This document shows positions 26,865-37,011 of a stretch of DNA of 64,000 nt, one piece after another. The first letter of the stretch is position 1. Each line of letters opens with the position of its first letter. Made by a program: the position numbers and the translations under genes. This DNA is from Tuwongella immobilis. Lineage in GTDB: Bacteria > Planctomycetota > Planctomycetia > Gemmatales > Gemmataceae. Under the pieces are notes generated by a model. That model was given only the letters and a program-made list of their open reading frames with translations. It was not told the DNA's origin and did not search any database. The stretch covers positions 3,758,920 to 3,822,919 of the forward strand of contig NZ_LR593887.1 of the NCBI RefSeq assembly GCF_901538355.1, read 5' to 3'.

Positions 26865-26906
26865 CCCCCGCGATTCGTCGTCAAGAGACGAATCGCGGGG
26901 GCTTTT
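26865..26906 (+). terminator. Strong intrinsic terminator
   Basis: Perfect 15-base stem CCCCCGCGATTCGTC/GACGAATCGCGGGGG with a 7-base loop followed by CTTTTT. It closes the redoxin/cytochrome transcript and faces the 3' end of the small DUF1328 gene. Confidence 0.92.
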
Positions 26907-27627: not shown

Positions 27628-29199
27628 ATGCCGCGAACGAAAATATTAATTGAGACGCTATCGCGGCTTCCGGAACTGACGACTCCAATTTTGGAATCGG
27701 CTCGACGATGGTGGCAATCCGAGGGTGAACCGGGCGAGGAATTTCTGACATTTTTAATTCGTCGGGGTGTGATTTCTGAAGCCGCTCCCATTATGTTAGA
27801 AATGGCTGAAGACGGCATTATTCAGAGCATCGATCCTCGGCGTTTAATCACATATAATGGGATCGACCAGTTGATCGATCGCTCGGAGCAGTTTCCGCCG
27901 CCAATCTCTGCGCTGCCGCCTGCACCGCCAACTCCCCCAGTGGCCCCGGCTCCAACTCCGGCTCCAAGCCAGCGACCGACCCAGTCCGAACGAATCACGG
28001 AACCTGCGTCAAGTCCACCGGTTCTGCCGTCTGCAAGCTCGGAATCGACAATTCCAGTTCGATCAGTCGATGAGGTATCGCAACCGGATCTACGCCAGAC
28101 ACCGCCGATCGGGAGCACCCAACCTGCAAAATCCGACCAATCACCGACCGCGATCGGTTCCACACTGGGCCGATGCCTGTTACTGGAAAAAGTCGGAGAA
28201 GGCGGCGCGGGTTCGGTCTATCGCGCATTGCATCGGACGTTAAATATCCCGGTTGCCGTGAAGGTATTTCGGCGATCGGTGATGGAATCTGGACCCGATA
28301 CCTTTAATCAATTTCGTGCCGAGGCACGATTATTAGCGCAACTGAATCACCCAAATGTGGTCCGGGTGTGGGATTTTGAAGACGATCCGCAATATCCCTT
28401 CCTGGTATTAGAATTCGTCGAAGGACTCACACTCGCGGAATTAATCGCGCATAGCGGCCGCGTGCAGCCCGAGCCGTGTGTTGCGCTGATGATTCAAGTC
28501 TGCATGGGGTTAAAAGCCGCTCAACAACTGGGCATCGTTCACCGCGATGTGAAGCCGGCGAACGTCCTCATCACCCGCCAAGGCGATGCGAAATTGGCGG
28601 ATTTGGGGTTGGCGGTCGTGGTGGCGGGCAAACTCGCGGGCGATCCGCAACTCGGGCCATCGGGCGGACTGGCCGGAACCGCCGCATACATGTCGCCCGA
28701 ACAGGCGCTGGGATCGCAAACCGTCGATCATCGTTCGGATATCTATGCACTCGGTGCCACGTTCTATCACGCCATCACTGGCGAGATGCCGTTCACGGGC
28801 AAACGAACGACCGAATTGCTGATGAAGCAAGTCAATGAAACCCCGCGTGCCCCGCATGTGGTGGTGCCGGAACTGGATCCGATGGTGACCGACATCATCA
28901 TGAAGATGATGGCCAAAGATCCGAACGAACGATTCGCCAATTACGACGAACTGATTGCCAAGTTACAGGAACTCCGCACACGTATCGCGCAAGGCGGGCT
29001 GTTTCCGCCCGCGCAGCAGCCGCCGAGTTTCGCCCGACAAAGTATCTCGTCGTACCCCGGCATTAGCAAAACGGTCTCCGATAGTGAAAGTCGCTCGGCA
29101 GGCAGTTCGATGTGGAAGGCCATCCGCCGCACCTTCTCCCGCAAAAAGCCGGATGATTCTGGTGGCGGCGACACCGATAGCTCGATGAGCGGTCGATAG
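27628..29199 (+). CDS. Cytoplasmic Ser/Thr protein kinase with N-terminal helical domain
   Basis: A 523-residue Hanks-type kinase. Residues 1-85 form a helical domain (RWWQSEGEPGEEFLTFLIRR). Residues 88-175 are a Pro/Ser-rich linker. The kinase domain (183-450) has glycine loop GEGGAGSV (190-197), VAVKVF lysine K212, catalytic HRDVKPAN (H305, D307, N312), DLG instead of DFG (325-327) and SPE (356-358). All essential residues are present, so it should be active. The C-terminal 70 residues are Ser-rich and basic. No transmembrane helix, unlike PknB. Start confirmed by AGGGGGA eight bases upstream. It heads a cluster with a roadblock-like protein, a kinase-like/phosphoesterase fusion and a coiled-coil membrane protein. 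Confidence 0.93.
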   Translation: MPRTKILIETLSRLPELTTPILESARRWWQSEGEPGEEFLTFLIRRGVISEAAPIMLEMAEDGIIQSIDPRRLITYNGIDQLIDRSEQFPPPISALPPAPPTPPVAPAPTPAPSQRPTQSERITEPASSPPVLPSASSESTIPVRSVDEVSQPDLRQTPPIGSTQPAKSDQSPTAIGSTLGRCLLLEKVGEGGAGSVYRALHRTLNIPVAVKVFRRSVMESGPDTFNQFRAEARLLAQLNHPNVVRVWDFEDDPQYPFLVLEFVEGLTLAELIAHSGRVQPEPCVALMIQVCMGLKAAQQLGIVHRDVKPANVLITRQGDAKLADLGLAVVVAGKLAGDPQLGPSGGLAGTAAYMSPEQALGSQTVDHRSDIYALGATFYHAITGEMPFTGKRTTELLMKQVNETPRAPHVVVPELDPMVTDIIMKMMAKDPNERFANYDELIAKLQELRTRIAQGGLFPPAQQPPSFARQSISSYPGISKTVSDSESRSAGSSMWKAIRRTFSRKKPDDSGGGDTDSSMSGR

Positions 29200-29240
29200 T
29201 CCGCACCGAATCCAAACGAGCGGATCAACGAAATTCCCTT

Positions 29241-29338
29241 TCGCCTAGGGTCTCAGGCGACTGTCAGCCTGCAATTCGCGAGTGCAGCGACAGCGAGCCC
29301 ATCTCGCGTAGCAAACCAATCACGGGATGGTGATTGGT
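29241..29338 (+). promoter_or_regulatory. Triple stem-loop leader before the roadblock gene
   Basis: Three stem-loops in the 153-base spacer. The first is TCGCCT/AGGCGA (29241-29260). The second is a two-part stem CTGTC..CTGCA/TGCAG..GACAG (29261-29293). The third is a perfect 9-base stem ACCAATCAC/GTGATTGGT with a 6-base loop (29315-29338), ending two bases before the AGGAGAAG ribosome site. The last could regulate translation or protect a processed mRNA end. There is no T run, so termination is unlikely. Confidence 0.5.
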
Positions 29339-29352
29339 CGAGGAGAAGTGAC

Positions 29353-29757
29353 ATGGCCCGTAATCTGAACGACAGTTGCCGAGCGATTCTGGATGACGTT
29401 CCCGACGCCATGGGTTGCGGGATCGTGGATCTCAGCACTGGGATGCTCCTGGGCGCACATCACATCGTGCCGTACTTCACGCAAGCGTACCTGGACGCGG
29501 TTGCCGCCGCCGCCGTGGACATGTATCGCGGAAAGAACGTCAAGCGCATCGAAGACCTGCTGAGCAAGGCTCGTGGCAAGCCGGTCAAAGATTCGTTCGA
29601 AGAAATCTTCATCTCGACTCCGCAAACCTTCCACTTCATGAAGATTATCAAAGAAAAGCAATCGGTGCTGGTGCTGATTACCCGCAAGACCACCAATCAA
29701 GGGATGGGTTGGGCTGCGGTGCGGAACGCCGTCACCGACGTGGCTTCGATCATGTGA
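29353..29757 (+). CDS. Roadblock/LC7-like protein
   Basis: A 134-residue cytoplasmic alpha/beta protein. The order helix-strand-strand-helix-strand-strand fits the roadblock/LC7 fold: AILDDVPDAMGCGIVDLSTG, MLLGAHHIVPYF, helix LDAVAAAAVDMYRG, then EEIFISTPQTFHFMKII and SVLVLITRKTTNQGMGWAAV. Roadblock proteins are dimeric scaffolds that usually regulate Ras-like GTPases such as MglA, but no GTPase is encoded nearby. Here the neighbours are a Ser/Thr kinase and a phosphoesterase fusion, so it may bridge or sense within that signalling set. Strong ribosome site AGGAGAAG. Confidence 0.62.
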   Translation: MARNLNDSCRAILDDVPDAMGCGIVDLSTGMLLGAHHIVPYFTQAYLDAVAAAAVDMYRGKNVKRIEDLLSKARGKPVKDSFEEIFISTPQTFHFMKIIKEKQSVLVLITRKTTNQGMGWAAVRNAVTDVASIM

Positions 29758-29851
29758 CCCTCGCCGGGGTTGCGCTCGGTCCAGACTGCTCTTGCCTCCC
29801 GCTGTCTTGGTCGAATCTTACGATTGTCTTTGCGATTCAGACAGCGATTCC

Positions 29852-29914
29852 ACTGCTCGAGTTTGCACCACAACCCGAGCAGTCCGCTACTTCCGATTGG
29901 GCCATGCCCCAATC
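29852..29914 (+). promoter_or_regulatory. Paired hairpins before the kinase-like/phosphoesterase gene
   Basis: ACTGCTCG/CGAGCAGT (29852-29883, 16-base loop) followed by GATTGGG/CCCAATC (29895-29914, 6-base loop), the latter ending just before GGGTGAGATG and the start codon at 29931. Arrangement similar to the spacer before the roadblock gene. Confidence 0.4.
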
Positions 29915-29930
29915 TGGGTGAGATGTCCTC

Positions 29931-31697
29931 ATGGCACGAAAGCCCGGTGTTTGGTTTCCGGTACCCAAATCCGTCGATTCGATCGAATGGCTCGGTCCCG
30001 GTCTCCCGATTCCGAACGATCAGTTGATGGGGTGGCTATGCGATCCACTCGGGGAAGAACTTCGCCATAAAGTGGGCGTCACCGGTGCGCGAGACGGCTC
30101 CGCGAAGTTGACGACCCGATTGCTGCAAATCCATGGCTGGTTTTTTAAGACCGACCATGCCAAGGCCGGCCCGGAATTGGCACCCATTCATTCCTCCTGG
30201 ATGCGGCAGGTTGAATTGGCGAGTCGAACTCCGTTTTGGCATCCGCAAAAGAGCTGGTTTCTGATTGTCGCCGATCCGTTGGTTTGGCCCGTGAGTATCA
30301 GCCCGGTGTTGCGAACGCTCCGCGAGCACACGGATATTGATCACCGGTTTGAATTGTTTGCCCGCATGATTGGATGGAGTTTGGAGATCTCGCGGGATCT
30401 TCAAATTGGGCTAGATGTGAATCCGTCGAATTTCGGAACCGAAGGCGATTCCGATCGACTGGTATACCTGGATGATGAAACCTATCCACCGTTGCAACTT
30501 CGCGATGTTGCCGAAGCGATTTCGGCACGAATTCCCGAAGAACCAACGGTTTCGACTCCGCATTGGCAACTGTGGGGCAAACGGCTGCAATCGGTTTTTC
30601 AGCCGTTTTGCACGGGGATTGATGAATGGTTGGAGCTGATTACCGGCATTCGAGATTATCCACTCACCGACCGCTTCATCCCCGCACGCGAATCCGTTTT
30701 GGGTGGGTTGTTGCAGGGGCATCCACGGTTGGATCGCTCGATGCGTGGTGGCAGTATCACAATCGAAATACGGCATCCGGTCGTCCCCGTAGCTCCGATT
30801 CCGCCACCGATTGCGAATCCGCCCGCAGCCGCGCAACCGATGCCGCCCGAATCGATTTCGCGCAATCCGGCTCCGATTGTGCCTGTGCCTGCGATCGAAC
30901 TCCCCTCTCCCGTGGAAGTTCCGCCCTGGGTGCCGCCACTGCCGCCACAAGGCGGATTGACCTGTGTATTTGCCGATGTCCACGGAAATCTCCCAGCATT
31001 GGAAGCGGTGTTAAGCTATGCCGAAGAATTGGGAGTCGATGAGTACCTATTCCTCGGGGATGTGGTGGGGTATGGCCCTTTCCCGAACGAGTGTATTCGA
31101 CGATTGCAAGGACTTCCGCGATTGACGGCGATTCGGGGAAATCATGACCATTTTGCAAGTCAGCCGGAATTTCGCGGGGAGGATTTTAACCGTGTGGCCC
31201 GGGAAGCCTTGCGGTGGACACGCGATGTTTTGGGCGCTGCAGAACGGGAGTGGCTTGCCAATCTTCCGGTGGAAGCGGGCATCGGAAATTGGCGGGCGTA
31301 TCATGGTGCCCCTTATTGTCCGGATCGATTTTCTGCATATGTCTATGAGCCGACGTATCGTGACAATCTGAACCGATTGGAACAGATGGGGGTCCAGGTG
31401 TGTTTTTATGGGCATACGCATGTGCCATTCATTCATCGCCGCTCGAGTTTTGGCGATGAGAAACTCACCCCCGACCCGATGCGATTATTTCGTCCGGGTG
31501 AGACGCTATTGATTAACCCCGGATCGGTGGGTCAACCGCGAGATGGTGACTCGCGGGCGGCGATTTTGATCTGGGATCGACGCACGGATTGGGTTCGATT
31601 TCACCGCATTGATTATCCGTTGGAGTCGATGATCTCCGCGAATCGCGCCGCTGGGCTTCCGGATGATTTGTCGGCACGGTTAGAAATTGGCCGCTGA
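29931..31697 (+). CDS. Kinase-like fold fused to calcineurin-like metallophosphoesterase
   Basis: A 588-residue soluble protein. Residues 340-585 are a metallophosphoesterase of the MJ0936/YfcE type with all metal motifs: FADVHGN (D349, H351), LGDVVGYG (D377), RGNHDHF (N404, H405), YHGAP (H458) and YGHTH (H495, H497). Residues 275-340 are a Pro-rich linker. Residues about 30-270 match no domain I know by sequence. They contain GLDVNPSNFG (160-169), shaped like a kinase catalytic loop D-x4-N, then LVYLDDETYP, like the Asp of an aminoglycoside-phosphotransferase-type DFG/DxE, and an upstream GWFFKTD lysine. I infer a kinase-fold module, active or not. Kinase and phosphatase in one chain would suggest a reversible phosphorylation switch. 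Confidence 0.75.
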   Translation: MARKPGVWFPVPKSVDSIEWLGPGLPIPNDQLMGWLCDPLGEELRHKVGVTGARDGSAKLTTRLLQIHGWFFKTDHAKAGPELAPIHSSWMRQVELASRTPFWHPQKSWFLIVADPLVWPVSISPVLRTLREHTDIDHRFELFARMIGWSLEISRDLQIGLDVNPSNFGTEGDSDRLVYLDDETYPPLQLRDVAEAISARIPEEPTVSTPHWQLWGKRLQSVFQPFCTGIDEWLELITGIRDYPLTDRFIPARESVLGGLLQGHPRLDRSMRGGSITIEIRHPVVPVAPIPPPIANPPAAAQPMPPESISRNPAPIVPVPAIELPSPVEVPPWVPPLPPQGGLTCVFADVHGNLPALEAVLSYAEELGVDEYLFLGDVVGYGPFPNECIRRLQGLPRLTAIRGNHDHFASQPEFRGEDFNRVAREALRWTRDVLGAAEREWLANLPVEAGIGNWRAYHGAPYCPDRFSAYVYEPTYRDNLNRLEQMGVQVCFYGHTHVPFIHRRSSFGDEKLTPDPMRLFRPGETLLINPGSVGQPRDGDSRAAILIWDRRTDWVRFHRIDYPLESMISANRAAGLPDDLSARLEIGR

Positions 31698-31731
31698 TGG
31701 TGGACGCAACGCTCTGCAACGAGGAATCCGA

Positions 31732-33987
31732 ATGTCCAACACTGCCCCCCCCCGCCGCTCGGCCGCAGCGACTTGGCTGCCCAGTCTCGAAGCCATCGGG
31801 TTGTTCGGCGTCGGTGCTGCGCTCTGGTCTTTGGGCGCATTTGCTTCTGCAATCGGCCTGATCGGGTTTGGATTGCTCGCGGGATTACTCGCGCTGCGGA
31901 TCTGGGACGCCTATTCCAGCGACCGAAATCAACGCGACTCCCAAGCGGCGGCCAAGCAACTCGAGGTGCTAAAACGCGACGCCGAATCGGCGATCAAGCA
32001 GCGCGTCGAACTCCTGCAACATCTCGAAGCCGCAGAAAGCCAGATCCGCAATCACGGAGAAGAACTGCACCAAGTTCGGATGGGCTTGCAAGCGAAAATC
32101 TCCGAATTAACACAATCGGCGACCAAAGAAAAGCGCCGCGCGGATCGATCCGAGCAAGAACTCGCCGCTCGAGAAGCCGAATTCGTGGAATCGAAACGGC
32201 GACTGACCGTGCTCGAAAATCAAGAGCAACAATCGCTGCAACGCCTGAGCGAAGCCCAAAGCAACGCCGATCGCTTGCGACAACGCATCTGCGAGTTGGA
32301 AGATTCGCATAGCGAACGCAATGCCGAATGGGAATCGCAACAGGAATCGCTGAATCGACGGATTCAAGATCTGACGACGCAACTGGACCAACGAGAAATT
32401 GAGCGGGACCGATTGGATGGCCGATTCCAAACCTTGCAAAGTCAGCTCGAACTCTCACAATCCGCGTTGAGCCGCGCCGAAGAGTACATCCAGGAGTTGT
32501 TGCGGCAGCAACGCGAAGCCGAGGAAGAACAGGCGGGCACCGAAGCACGGTTTCAACAATTGCGGCAACAACTGATCGAGCGCGGCACTGGCCAGACGGA
32601 ACTCGAAGCCCAAGTCGAACAGTTGCAGCGTGAATTGGCCGAACTGACCGAACAGAAAACCGATGCCGAGTCGCGGGTGGCCGACCTTCGGGAGCAACTC
32701 GCCGCATTTCGGGAATCGCAATTCTCGCGGGTGGAGGATCTCCGCGAAACGCACGCCCAACAAATCGAACGAATCCGGGCTTCGCAGCAAGAAGAATTGG
32801 AAACGCTCCGCAGCGAACATGCCGAGATGCTCGCAACCCTCGAACGCGAGCAATCGATCCGCTGGGTGGCGGAACAAAACCGCGCTCAGCAAGCCGAGAC
32901 CCGCGCTGAACAGCTGGAAACGGAACTCGAACAGGTCAAACGGGATTGGATCACCGCCCAAAATCAACGCGACCAACTGGAACGCGAGAAAGCCCGGACA
33001 ACCGAACTCCGAACGAATATCGAATCGTTTCGTCAGGAAAATCAGCGGTTGCAAGCCTTGCTCGATGCCTCGTTGTCACTCGAAACCAGTGCCTCGGCCC
33101 GCGAGTCGGCCCGCGCAGAAGAGTTGGAAGCCAAAGTCGCCCAGCTGCAAGCGCAACTCGAAGCCATGGAACAACAAGCGTTGTCTCGCAGTCGAGAAAC
33201 CGCCGATTCCGAATTCGAACACGAATCGACCAAGTCTCAACTGATTCAGCTCGAGGTCAGCCTGGGAAATACCCAATCCCGCCTGGCGGAATTGGCTCAG
33301 GAACGCGACCAGTTGCAATCACGTCTCCTGCCGTTGCAGCAGACGCATCAGGTCACGTTGGACGAACTGGCGACCTTGCGTGCCGAGTTGGAATCGCACC
33401 GCGAAAGCCTTGCCCGTGCGGAACAGGCACTGGCGAGCGCCAGTCTCCAATCGGGTGAGCAATCGGCATTGCAATCTCGGCTTGCCCAGTTGGAACAGGA
33501 ACACGCACAACTCCAAGCGGAACGAACTCGTCGGGAAGCGGAAAGCCAGGCGTTTGCAGAACAATTGGCATCGGTGCAGCAGGAGCGGGTGCAACTCGCC
33601 AGCCAACTGCAAAGCATGCAGCAATCGCTGGAATCCGCCCGCACGCAATGCGAACGCTTAGAATCGCAGATTCAAACGATGCATCGCGATTTCGCGGACG
33701 AGCGGGAACGTCAGTCCGCCGCACACGATCTGCGTCCGCTGCAAGATCGAATTCGGGAATTGGAAAGCGAGATCGCCAATCGCGATGCGGAAATGGTGTG
33801 GATTCGCAAAGAATTGGTCGATGCAGGCTGGGAAACCAAGCGACTGGCGACCGAACTCGAAGCCGCTCGGCAATCGCTTGCAGAAGCGGAAACCGCGAAA
33901 GTGACTGCGGCCCTCGAATCGGGCGTACCCTCCGAATCGTCCCAGCCGGAGCATTCGGCGAGTTCGGACTCCGCTGGCGGAGCCTGA
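31732..33987 (+). CDS. Membrane-anchored long coiled-coil protein
   Basis: A 751-residue protein with a short N-terminus, two adjacent hydrophobic segments (residues about 20-58, [20 protein letters not shown]) and then almost unbroken heptad-rich Gln/Glu/Arg sequence from about 65 to 725, read by eye as coiled coil (LQRQLEEL-like repeats). The tail is Ser/Glu-rich. The long rod is most likely cytoplasmic. Such proteins act as spacers, scaffolds or polar organisers. It starts 34 bases after the phosphoesterase fusion, so it belongs to the same transcript, and may anchor the soluble signalling proteins at the membrane. The composition makes remote homology assignments unreliable. Confidence 0.8.
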
Positions 33988-34020
33988 TTCCAACAGGGTG
34001 ATTTATCGGGCATCCACGAG

Positions 34021-34059
34021 GCATTTCTCGGAGAACAATCCGAGAAATGCTCGTTTTTT
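34021..34059 (+). terminator. Strong terminator closing the kinase/coiled-coil cluster
   Basis: Perfect 12-base stem GCATTTCTCGGA/TCCGAGAAATGC, 6-base loop, followed by TCGTTTTTT. It separates the coiled-coil gene from the sensor kinase gene starting at 34136. Confidence 0.93.
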
Positions 34060-34135: not shown

Positions 34136-36355
34136 ATGAACGAACCGATTGCTCCGGAAGTCGCTCTCGCGGAGGCGTACAACTCCGTCCTTGTGATCGA
34201 CGATGATCCGCAAATCCAATCGCTGCTTCGCTTTGCCATGGAGCAGGATGGACACCCATGCCTGACCACGGATAGCGCCGAAACCGCACTGACCTGGTTG
34301 GCATATCGCACCTTCGGGGTGGTCATCGTCGATCTGTCTCTTCCGGGGTTGGGCGGGTTGGAATTCCTCGCCGAGTTGTCGAAACTCGAAATCGATACCA
34401 TTCCAATTGTCATCACGGCAAGCACGGATGTTGATTCGGTCATTCAAGCCACGCGACTGGGTGCGATCAATTATCTGAACAAACCGATCAAACTCGAACT
34501 GTTGCGACGGGTGGTGGATTTGGGCCTGGAGATGGGTCGCAATCGCCGCTCGGAACGTGCGTTTCGACAACTCCAGCAAGAACGCGCCGCTCTGTTCGAT
34601 GCTAGTCCCGATGCGATTCTGATTGTCGATGCCCAGGAAATCTGCGTTCACGCCAACGCATCCAGCGAACGCCTGTTTTCCTGCACGCGGAATGCGATTA
34701 TCGGGAAACGACTCGGATCAAATCTGGGTGATCCCGTGGCCATCGCCTTGCGAAAACTGGTGAAATTGGCATGCGAATCCTCCATGCAGCGACCTCAGCG
34801 ACTTCTGCCGATCGGCGATGAGACGATTGTCTCGGTGATTGCCGCTCCGATTGGTTCGGAAAGCGCGTCCAACCGGCGAGTCGTATTGATTCTGCGCGAA
34901 ATCACGCAAGAAATCCGAAGTCAGCAGCGCATTCAATCCACACGGGATTTTTACCAATCGGCGTTGGATGCGCTCACCTCAGAAATCGCGATTTTGGACT
35001 CAACGGGCACGATCATTGCAGTGAATGCGGCCTGGCGTGACTTTGGCAGCGAGCATCAACTTTCGCTGCCCAACCACGGAATTGGCAGCAATTACTTGAC
35101 CGCCTGCATGGGGACCGCAGAGGGCCGCGAAATTGCCGCGGGCATTCGTGCGGTAGCGTCGGGAAATCAGTCGGTGTTTATTCGTCAGTACCCCTGCCCG
35201 CGTCCGCATCGCGTCGATTGGTTCATGATTCGTGTGACTCGATTCGGTGACACGGGAGAACCATTCATCGTGGTGGCCCATCAAGATGTGACCGATCGCG
35301 TGGAAGTCGAACAAGAGATGCGAGTGCGGGACACGCACAAACAGGCGATTTTGAACACCGCTGTGGATGCCATTATCACGATTTGTGATCGCGGAATTAT
35401 CGAATCGTATAATCGAGCATGTCAGACGATCTTTGGCTATTCATCGGATGAGGTGATTGGTCAGAATGTGTCGCTGCTGATGGACGATCCGTATCGGCAA
35501 GAGCATGATGAATACCTGCGTCATTATCTGAAAACGGGCGAAAAACGAGTGATTGGGTTCCGTCGTGAAGTGCGCGGGCGACGGAAAGATGGATCGGTTT
35601 TGCCGCTGGAATTGGCGGTGAGCGAAGTTTGGCTGGCCGGGCAACGCAAATTCGTCGGGATTCTGCGTGACATCTCGGAACTCAAGCGCGTCGAAGGCAT
35701 TCGAACGCGGCTGTTGCGAGAATTGCTGACCGCGCAGGAAGATGAACGGCGTCGAGTGGCCCGTGAATTGCACGATGGCATTGGCCAAAGTTTGGTTTCG
35801 TTGAAATTCGGGCTGCAAGCGATTTCGCAGGCGAAAACGATCCAAGAAATCATCGACCGTGCCAGCCGATTGAGCCAACTGGCCGCCGAGGGTTTGGAAG
35901 AAGTCCGGCGAATGGCCCAGGGATTACGCCCCAGTGTGTTGGATGATTTGGGGTTATCCGCCGCCATCGAGCGATTGTTGGGGAATTTCACGAAGGTCCA
36001 CGGGATTCGCAGCGAATTTGTGGCCCCGGATGACGCCCCGATGGCACGGCTTCCGGTCGAGGTGGAGACGACGGTGTATCGCATTGTTCAAGAAGCCTTG
36101 AGCAATATCGCCAAACACGCGAATGCACGCTCGGTGGATGTGGTGTTGGAAACCTCGTCGCGGCTGGTTCGAGCGGTCATCGTCGATGATGGGATTGGCT
36201 TTGTCGGTACTCAATCCCCGCAGGCGAGCGGCGGATTGGGATTGTCGGGCATGCGGGAGCGGGCCGCGCTCCTGGGCGGAACCGTGATTGTGGAATCCAT
36301 CCCGGAACATGGAACCACAATCGTCGTGGAAATCCCTTTGAGTCGAGAACGATGA
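34136..36355 (+). CDS. Receiver-PAS-HisKA_3 sensor histidine kinase
   Basis: A 739-residue soluble kinase. Residues 15-130 are a receiver domain (phosphoacceptor D66 in IVDLSLPG, K116 in YLNKP). Three PAS domains follow: about 145-260, 272-395 and 400-520, the last ending [13 protein letters not shown]. Then comes a HisKA_3 dimerisation helix with H546 in [19 protein letters not shown], and a NarL-type HATPase ([18 protein letters not shown]). The frame is open back to 33998 but crosses a terminator, so the ATG at 34136 is used. Its stop overlaps the start of the LuxR-type regulator, its obvious partner. No membrane segment, so the stimulus is cytoplasmic or arrives by phosphorylation of the receiver. 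Confidence 0.92.
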
Positions 36356-37011
36356 TGTCGAAAACCACGGTGGTGATTGCCGACGATCACGCGATTCTGC
36401 GCGATGGATTGCGGACGCTGTTCCAGGCACACGCGGACTTGGAAGTGGTCGGCGAGGCGGCAGACAGCAACAGCGTTGTGCAAGTGGTGCGCGAGTCTCG
36501 CCCGCAGGTTCTTTGCTTGGACTTGTCGATGCCCGGCGGCACCGGCGTTCGCACCATTGAACGAGTCCGTGCAGAATCGCCCTCCACGCGCATTCTCATT
36601 CTCACCATGCACAACGATCCCGCGTATCTGCGTGTGTCGCTTGCCGCGGGTGCCAAGGGGTTTATGCTGAAATCGACGCCGGTAAACGAGCTAATTGACG
36701 CCATTCGCAAAGTCGCTTCGGGCGAACGGGTGATTGATCCGGCTTTACCAGAACGCGGAACGAATCTCCTCCCGGCGATTAGCGCGAACGATCCGCTGGC
36801 CACGCTCAGCCGACGCGAACGCGAAGTGCTAGATCTGCTGGCCCAGGGGCACACCCATCAGGAAATCGCGGAAAAACTCTTTGTGAGCGTCAAGACTGTG
36901 GAAACCTATCGCGCGCGGCTGCGTGAAAAGACAGGACTCAAAACCCGCGCGGATTACGTCCGATTTGGCCGAGACACGCCACCGAACCAAGATATTCCCG
37001 AGGAAAACTGA
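36352..37011 (+). CDS. NarL/LuxR-family response regulator
   Basis: A 219-residue two-domain regulator. The receiver (1-125) has acidic pair D11-D12, phosphoacceptor D57 in [10 protein letters not shown] and K108-type lysine in KGFMLKSTP. The LuxR-type helix-turn-helix (about 150-210) reads [20 protein letters not shown] then [17 protein letters not shown]. The start overlaps the sensor kinase stop by four bases, so they form a two-component pair. A second ATG one codon later is possible. Targets are not evident; the outer-membrane-like gene downstream at 37265 is a candidate. Confidence 0.95.

Follow-up and report, generated by a model that had tools for sequence, protein, structure and literature searches.

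What does a roadblock protein do in a bacterium where no partner GTPase accompanies it? In bacteria, these proteins are familiar mainly for working with small GTPases, and a four-gene cluster of the planctomycete Tuwongella immobilis (family Gemmataceae) puts this question sharply. The cluster lies within a 64,000-nucleotide stretch of contig NZ_LR593887.1 (positions 3,758,920 to 3,822,919 of the forward strand; hereafter the window) and encodes a Ser/Thr kinase, a Roadblock-fold protein, a two-domain enzyme that we call KMPE (a kinase-like domain followed by a metallophosphoesterase) and a coiled-coil protein. With moderate confidence, we propose that the cluster represents a widespread type of roadblock regulatory module in a version that lacks the GTPase. 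The Roadblock protein and KMPE form its core, and the kinase would supply the input and KMPE the output. Related clusters point to a further role for roadblock proteins, that of organising phosphorylation enzymes where no GTPase is present.

The identity of gene 2 is the starting point. The protein matches no Pfam or NCBIfam family up to E 1, PF03259 included, and PHROGs returns a weak tail-fibre match. An AlphaFold2 model built from 54 aligned sequences (predicted local distance difference test score, pLDDT, 94.6) nonetheless has the alpha-beta-beta-alpha-beta-beta-beta-alpha order of the Roadblock fold, and its best PDB matches by Foldseek are the Roadblock structure 3kye (E 3.4e-8), MglB and MglC. 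MglC is also the best PDB hit of the family profile (E 4e-4), and the same profile aligns by hhalign with RB1, the second roadblock protein of related loci (E 9e-7). The roadblock-like assignment made in the initial annotation thus holds up, and gene 2 encodes a Roadblock/LC7-fold protein. The same genome encodes, outside the window, a second, isolated roadblock-like protein of 119 amino acids (contig positions approximately 745770-746108; E 2e-4 to the roadblock profile), with no GTPase evident beside it.

Gene 3 encodes KMPE, which aligns across both domains in 44 full-length sequences, the window's included (44 of roughly 70 sequences found; 24-48% identity to the window protein). Residues 345-546 match PF12850 (E 1.7e-18), PHROGs matches are of phosphatase type, and the metal-binding residues D349, H351, D377, N404, H405, H458, H495 and H497 are identical in 44/44 sequences. 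The C-terminal domain therefore has both the family match (PF12850/PF00149) and the metal-binding D, H and N residues of a calcineurin-like metallophosphoesterase. Its best structural match is 3rqz (Z 33.5); SapH, an asymmetric Ap4A hydrolase, is also near (Z 27), with PP5, calcineurin and PP2A lower (Z 16-17). The proposal that this phosphoesterase acts as an eraser on phosphoproteins is not supported by a set of matches that includes SapH. The matches raise instead the main alternative to our proposal, namely that KMPE is a nucleotide or second-messenger enzyme under the control of the roadblock dimer: its phosphoesterase domain would cleave Ap4A or a similar dinucleotide, and its N-terminal domain would bind a small molecule or phosphorylate one. 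The proximity to SapH speaks for this alternative, although 3rqz, the best match, carries no function in its title, and overall we consider it rather unlikely.

The N-terminal domain of KMPE has no convincing Pfam family and no PDB sequence match. It does contain four residues, K73, D162, N167 and D181, that are identical in 44/44 sequences and form the pattern K...D-x4-N...D. The motifs of protein-kinase-like domains follow the order K, D, N, D. In the model, K73 lies in a strand preceding a long helix, D162 and N167 lie in a loop following another long helix, and D181 comes after a strand pair, an order of elements that fits the one expected of a protein-kinase-like domain. The column of the alphaC glutamate holds E in 36/44 sequences and A in the window protein. 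A structure search with the whole KMPE model gave no kinase chain among the matches listed, a result that tests little as the phosphoesterase domain filled the list. We call this previously undescribed domain kinase-like rather than a kinase.

Roadblock relatives were collected by scanning a collection of species genomes, and the best 80 of 117 confirmed loci were used, including a second Gemmataceae record (G005) that helped build the query. Their hosts are mostly Gammaproteobacteria, joined by Myxococcota, Gemmatimonadota, Zetaproteobacteria, one Phycisphaerales metagenome-assembled genome (MAG) and one MAG labelled Cyanobacteria. KMPE lies within 3 kb of the window-type roadblock (RB2) in 71/80 loci, on the same strand in 47 and the opposite strand in 24, and is missing from that interval in 9. 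Over the same distance, a protein of 350 amino acids (F3) was found in 48 loci, a GTPase of 180 amino acids in 45 and RB1 in 36. All of these neighbour counts are minimum values, as contig ends truncate some of the loci. Proximity of KMPE to the roadblock thus exceeds chance, and the roadblock family is linked more closely to KMPE than to the GTPase. Among PDB entries, the GTPase profile matches Sec4/Rab proteins (best E 2e-13) and MglA (E 1e-9), and the RB1 profile matches known Roadblock structures.

The F3-GTPase-RB1-RB2 layout of the proteobacterial loci fits a published description. Group 3 MglA systems comprise a protein of unknown function whose ends resemble a receiver and a winged helix, an MglA homologue and one or two MglB homologues, and are almost exclusively beta- and gamma-proteobacterial (Wuichet and Sogaard-Andersen 2014, PMC4316618). 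We matched the two by layout and description rather than by sequence. Named cultured hosts of the GTPase-bearing kind in the fetched set are Methylovulum, Marinobacter, Marinobacterium and Solimonas.

Several of these loci have features of their own. In Candidatus Competibacter phosphatis (L136:10456-12015), KMPE is split across several frames, as if broken or mis-sequenced. Two Methylovulum loci (L102:6554-7619 and L115:3557-4782) have an additional GTPase and RB1-like pair on the opposite strand, adjoining the main operon, and there are genomes with as many as seven copies of this GTPase family. A conserved 237-amino-acid protein without a clear Pfam family (F18) lies between roadblock and KMPE in four Methylococcales loci (L085, L088, L101 and L133), and a 520-amino-acid protein with a marginal PilZ match (E 0.2) adjoins KMPE in eight loci (L065, L067, L080, L083, L092, L097, L111 and L112).

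The window belongs to a part of this family in which the GTPase is missing. The KMPE tree places the window protein in a clade of 8 (SH-aLRT support 100), the other seven members of which come from Myxococcota, Gemmatimonadota and one gammaproteobacterial MAG. A branch of the roadblock tree, likewise with support 100, has on one side the 32 rows that belong to GTPase-bearing loci. When the GTPase profile was run against 20 whole genomes, a strong match was found in 0/10 genomes of the GTPase-less kind and, at E <= 1e-50, in 9/10 of the others. The tenth of these others, Marinobacterium weihaiense, has no GTPase match, though its locus retains F3, roadblock and KMPE. Weaker matches (E 1e-5 to 1e-8) occurred in three of the GTPase-less genomes. 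Since the ten include several draft MAGs, an absence from any one of them means little, and it is the overall pattern that carries weight. On these profile searches, the small GTPase of the Group 3 MglA relatives is absent from the window's clade.

Could the roadblock protein be a classical regulator of the MglB type, with its GTPase gene at another place in the genome? Its fold matches MglB, its relatives adjoin an MglA-like GTPase, and two loci (L071 and L121) have no GTPase within 3 kb of the roadblock yet a strong match in the genome. The T. immobilis genome was, however, searched whole (a single contig of 6.69 Mb), and the GTPase profile matched nothing in it at E <= 0.01 (58/61 candidates scored), the window included. 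Matches to the Ras family PF00071 occur only inside long frames of 444-1275 amino acids, and the RB1 profile found only the window's roadblock, at E 0.22. The initial annotation had seen no partner GTPase in the cluster, and the genome-wide search extends this view. Together with the absence of a strong match from all ten GTPase-less genomes, these results led us to reject service to an unlinked GTPase, which we regard as very improbable.

In the window's clade, the conserved Roadblock-KMPE core is found instead in the company of Ser/Thr kinases, DSP phosphatases or receiver domains. Gene 1 of the window is an example: its residues 186-437 match PF00069 (E 1.7e-49) and contain the motifs VAVKV, HRDVKPAN and ADLG (K, HRD and DFG-type), by which it is a predicted Hanks-type Ser/Thr kinase. 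The domain is preceded by a proline-rich linker and an N-terminal region (residues 1-182) that finds matches in 7/59 genomes, the source genome included. The Gemmataceae MAG G005 (locus L005, identical to L057) has the order kinase-roadblock-roadblock-KMPE, its contig ending inside KMPE, and its kinase has HQD where most kinases have HRD. In another MAG (L063), a same-strand kinase lies directly upstream of the roadblock and KMPE is divergent, and in L078 a kinase fragment at the contig edge is followed by a receiver-like gene, roadblock and KMPE. Four loci (L060, L064, L066 and L068) begin with a fusion of an ABC ATPase and a DSP phosphatase, followed by a roadblock of the sister subfamily RB2b, one of the window's own subfamily RB2a, and KMPE. 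L059 and L061 encode a histidine-kinase-like open reading frame (ORF), a small RB1-like protein, a coiled coil, a receiver-roadblock fusion and KMPE; L058, which is cut at its ends, has only the small protein, the coiled coil and the roadblock fusion. The receiver of L059 was confirmed by Pfam; in the other loci of this type, histidine kinase and receiver were read by eye. L062 has roadblock and KMPE with no clear partner gene.

Several loci of the sister subfamily RB2b, from other Planctomycetota, show the same company. A kinase and an ABC-DSP fusion lie near the roadblock in another Gemmataceae genome (L163), an ABC-DSP fusion adjoins the roadblock in L140, and a further planctomycete locus (L138) reads roadblock, kinase, ABC, DSP fused to roadblock, roadblock, kinase. 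In yet another planctomycete, kinase and roadblock form a single 555-amino-acid ORF (L139:7507-9174), with another kinase ORF directly upstream. The sole gain from a viral collection (IMG/VR) was a distant RB2b roadblock on a 119-kb contig (L137), with no kinase, DSP, GTPase or KMPE within the 10 kb examined.

Several observations weigh against our proposal. The kinase-like domain of KMPE has no sequence or profile link to kinases: comparison with Hanks kinases by hhalign gave a probability of 0.2%, though in this short alignment the HRD aspartate and its following asparagine lie close to D162 and N167, and the DFG-type aspartate lines up with D181. In G005, an unlinked kinase resembles the window kinase more closely (51%) than the one next to the roadblock does (40%, the second-best match), and the source genome has 109 kinase-like places, so the pairing of kinase and roadblock could be partly chance. 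Two RB2b loci, L006 and L137, have no kinase, phosphatase or GTPase nearby. Of the intergenic spacers (153, 173 and 34 nucleotides in gene order), the first two leave space for separate promoters. Finally, a kinase or DSP phosphatase lies within 5 kb in 7/11 GTPase-less loci and 0/69 others (Fisher 1e-7), a contrast confounded by taxonomy, as Gammaproteobacteria have fewer kinases, and in part by the making of the kinase profile, to which two of the three kinase loci contributed.

Some of these points would suit another explanation, in which roadblock and KMPE make up the whole unit and the flanking genes, for the Ser/Thr kinase and the coiled coil, have no connection with it. The number of kinase-like places, the 153-nucleotide spacer and an orthology with G005 that is not strict all agree with it, and among the 12 GTPase-less RB2a records (the window and 11 of the 80 loci) a kinase lies within 5 kb in 4 and is lacking in 8. 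It accounts poorly for the three genomes (the window, G005 and L063) in which RB2 directly follows a kinase gene on the same strand, for the kinase-roadblock fusion of L139 and for the kinases beside RB2b in L138 and L163, and we judge it unlikely. The missing sequence link to protein kinases likewise favours the nucleotide-enzyme alternative, against which stand the kinase and DSP neighbours and the fusions of both to roadblock proteins, which favour protein phosphorylation around the roadblock.

Under the GTPase-free module that we propose, the Roadblock protein would dimerise, as its fold family suggests, and the dimer would act both as a platform on which partners dock and as an allosteric switch. 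Input, which elsewhere comes from a GTPase, would come from the Ser/Thr kinase encoded upstream, and KMPE would be the output enzyme, one domain adding a phosphoryl group and the other removing one. The complex may be held at the membrane by the coiled coil. Physical contacts, substrate, direction of signalling, phosphorylation and complex formation are all what we infer here from gene content and models. The initial annotation had pictured a writer, a scaffold and an eraser in localised reversible phosphorylation; this idea is strengthened by the independent loci with a kinase or DSP phosphatase beside or fused to a roadblock, its phosphorylation and complex staying at the level of proposal. 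The earlier interpretation is thus partly supported as a whole.

The arrangement of the cluster is given below. All four ORFs are present on the + strand and end at a hairpin with a folding energy of -32.4 kcal/mol (z -6.1), which confirms the four-gene cluster as first described.

Table 1. Features of the roadblock-KMPE cluster and its borders (positions within the window).
Feature	Position	Strand	Length or residues	Basis or detail
Terminator-like hairpin, upstream border	26865..26901	+		15 pairs, T-rich tail (hairpin scan)
Gene 1, Ser/Thr protein kinase	27628..29199	+	523 aa	ORF, domain match
Gene 2, Roadblock/LC7-fold protein (RB2a)	29353..29757	+	134 aa	ORF, profile and model
Gene 3, KMPE	29931..31697	+	588 aa	ORF, domain match, alignment, model
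KMPE N-terminal kinase-like domain	29931-30746	+	residues 1-272	invariant K73, D162, N167, D181
KMPE linker		+	residues 273-338	low model confidence
KMPE C-terminal metallophosphoesterase	30954-31694	+		PF12850
Gene 4, coiled-coil protein	31732..33987	+	751 aa	ORF, sequence composition
Intrinsic terminator-like hairpin, cluster end	34020..34051	+		13 pairs, then T run

The terminator scan found 14 candidates in total against a shuffled mean of 14.6, so only the two long stems at the borders count; weaker + strand matches also lie inside genes 3 and 4. One transcript across the four genes is plausible. After the terminator come a receiver-PAS-HisKA_3 histidine kinase (34136-36355, +) and a NarL-type response regulator (36352-37011, +), a pair that we count as a separate unit because the terminator precedes it.

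Gene 4 is listed from a TTG at 31687, the ATG in Table 1 being the likelier start. It has a single hydrophobic stretch near the N terminus (the best 19-residue window starts at residue 37), followed by a proline-poor coil rich in E, Q, A, L and R. Membership of the coiled coil in the module is not supported. The only other kinase-type Gemmataceae locus, that of G005, ends inside gene 3, no relative of gene 4 was found at those corresponding loci that could be inspected, and comparison with a myxobacterial coiled coil (CC23) gave no significant similarity (BLAST best E 2.2). The gene order observed to be conserved extends from kinase through roadblock to KMPE in G005, and to a kinase-roadblock pair with divergent KMPE in L063. 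An anti-phage cassette was also considered and rejected: PADLOC matches gene 1 only to models of kinase domains and gene 4 only to models of coiled-coil ATPases, and has no match for genes 2 and 3.

Within its own family, the module is rare and patchy. The roadblock occurs in 3/95 Gemmataceae genomes and the KMPE N-terminal domain in 2/95, both of which also have the roadblock; G019 yielded a phosphoesterase fragment only, and an early roadblock profile had found matches in 4/392 Planctomycetota genomes. This patchiness, together with close relatives in other phyla, suggests horizontal transfer.

The GTPase-less clade provides a defined set of genomes for asking what a roadblock does without a GTPase. 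For Group 3 MglA systems, described in PMC4316618 from gene neighbourhoods only, KMPE is in addition a candidate for the enzyme that delivers the output. A broader and more tentative idea, which we put below an even chance, is that bacterial roadblock dimers are GTPase-independent scaffolds and switches for pairs of kinase and phosphatase, comparable in function to the eukaryotic MP1-p14/MEK scaffold, and that KMPE is a new family of atypical kinases, each fused to a phosphoesterase of its own, whose part as an output of the proteobacterial Group 3 MglA systems has been overlooked as well. The initial annotation knew of no described system with this set of genes. In the open-licence PMC literature, judged by title and abstract opening and with subscription journals and supplements outside its scope, we found no paper that links a roadblock with a KMPE-type phosphoesterase or with bacterial Ser/Thr kinases; the GTPase-bearing relative, the Group 3 MglA system, is by contrast in print (PMC4316618).

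How, then, does the cluster compare with known systems? The C-terminal domain of KMPE resembles metallophosphoesterases of the 3rqz and SapH types, but those entries, of about 240-260 residues, have no second domain of such size, whereas KMPE adds the kinase-like domain. The MglA/MglB/MglC polarity system of Myxococcus shares the Roadblock fold, MglC being best by profile and MglB among the best by structure. It differs from the window's genome in its MglA-type GTPase, which was not found there, and to our knowledge KMPE is not part of it. In eukaryotes, the roadblock pair LAMTOR2/3 (p14-MP1) binds MEK1 and promotes ERK1 activation (review, PMC10175929); we draw a functional analogy only and claim no common origin of the assembly. 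LAMTOR also binds Rag GTPases. Actinobacterial conservons (CvnA-D) likewise encode a roadblock protein with a kinase, which is a histidine kinase accompanied by CvnC and a GTPase (PMC4316618), whereas the window has a Ser/Thr kinase and no GTPase. Group 3 MglA systems have one or two MglB-like roadblocks of the same subfamily as the window, and the proteobacterial relatives of genes 2 and 3 adjoin a Ras-like GTPase and the unknown 350-amino-acid protein, as in the published layout (PMC4316618). The main text of that paper does not name KMPE for these systems, and the words phosphoesterase and phosphatase have zero occurrences in it. F3 has no match within the 64-kb window, the part of the genome that was searched for it. 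Where Group 3 MglA systems have a GTPase, RB1 and F3, the window has a Ser/Thr kinase and a coiled coil.

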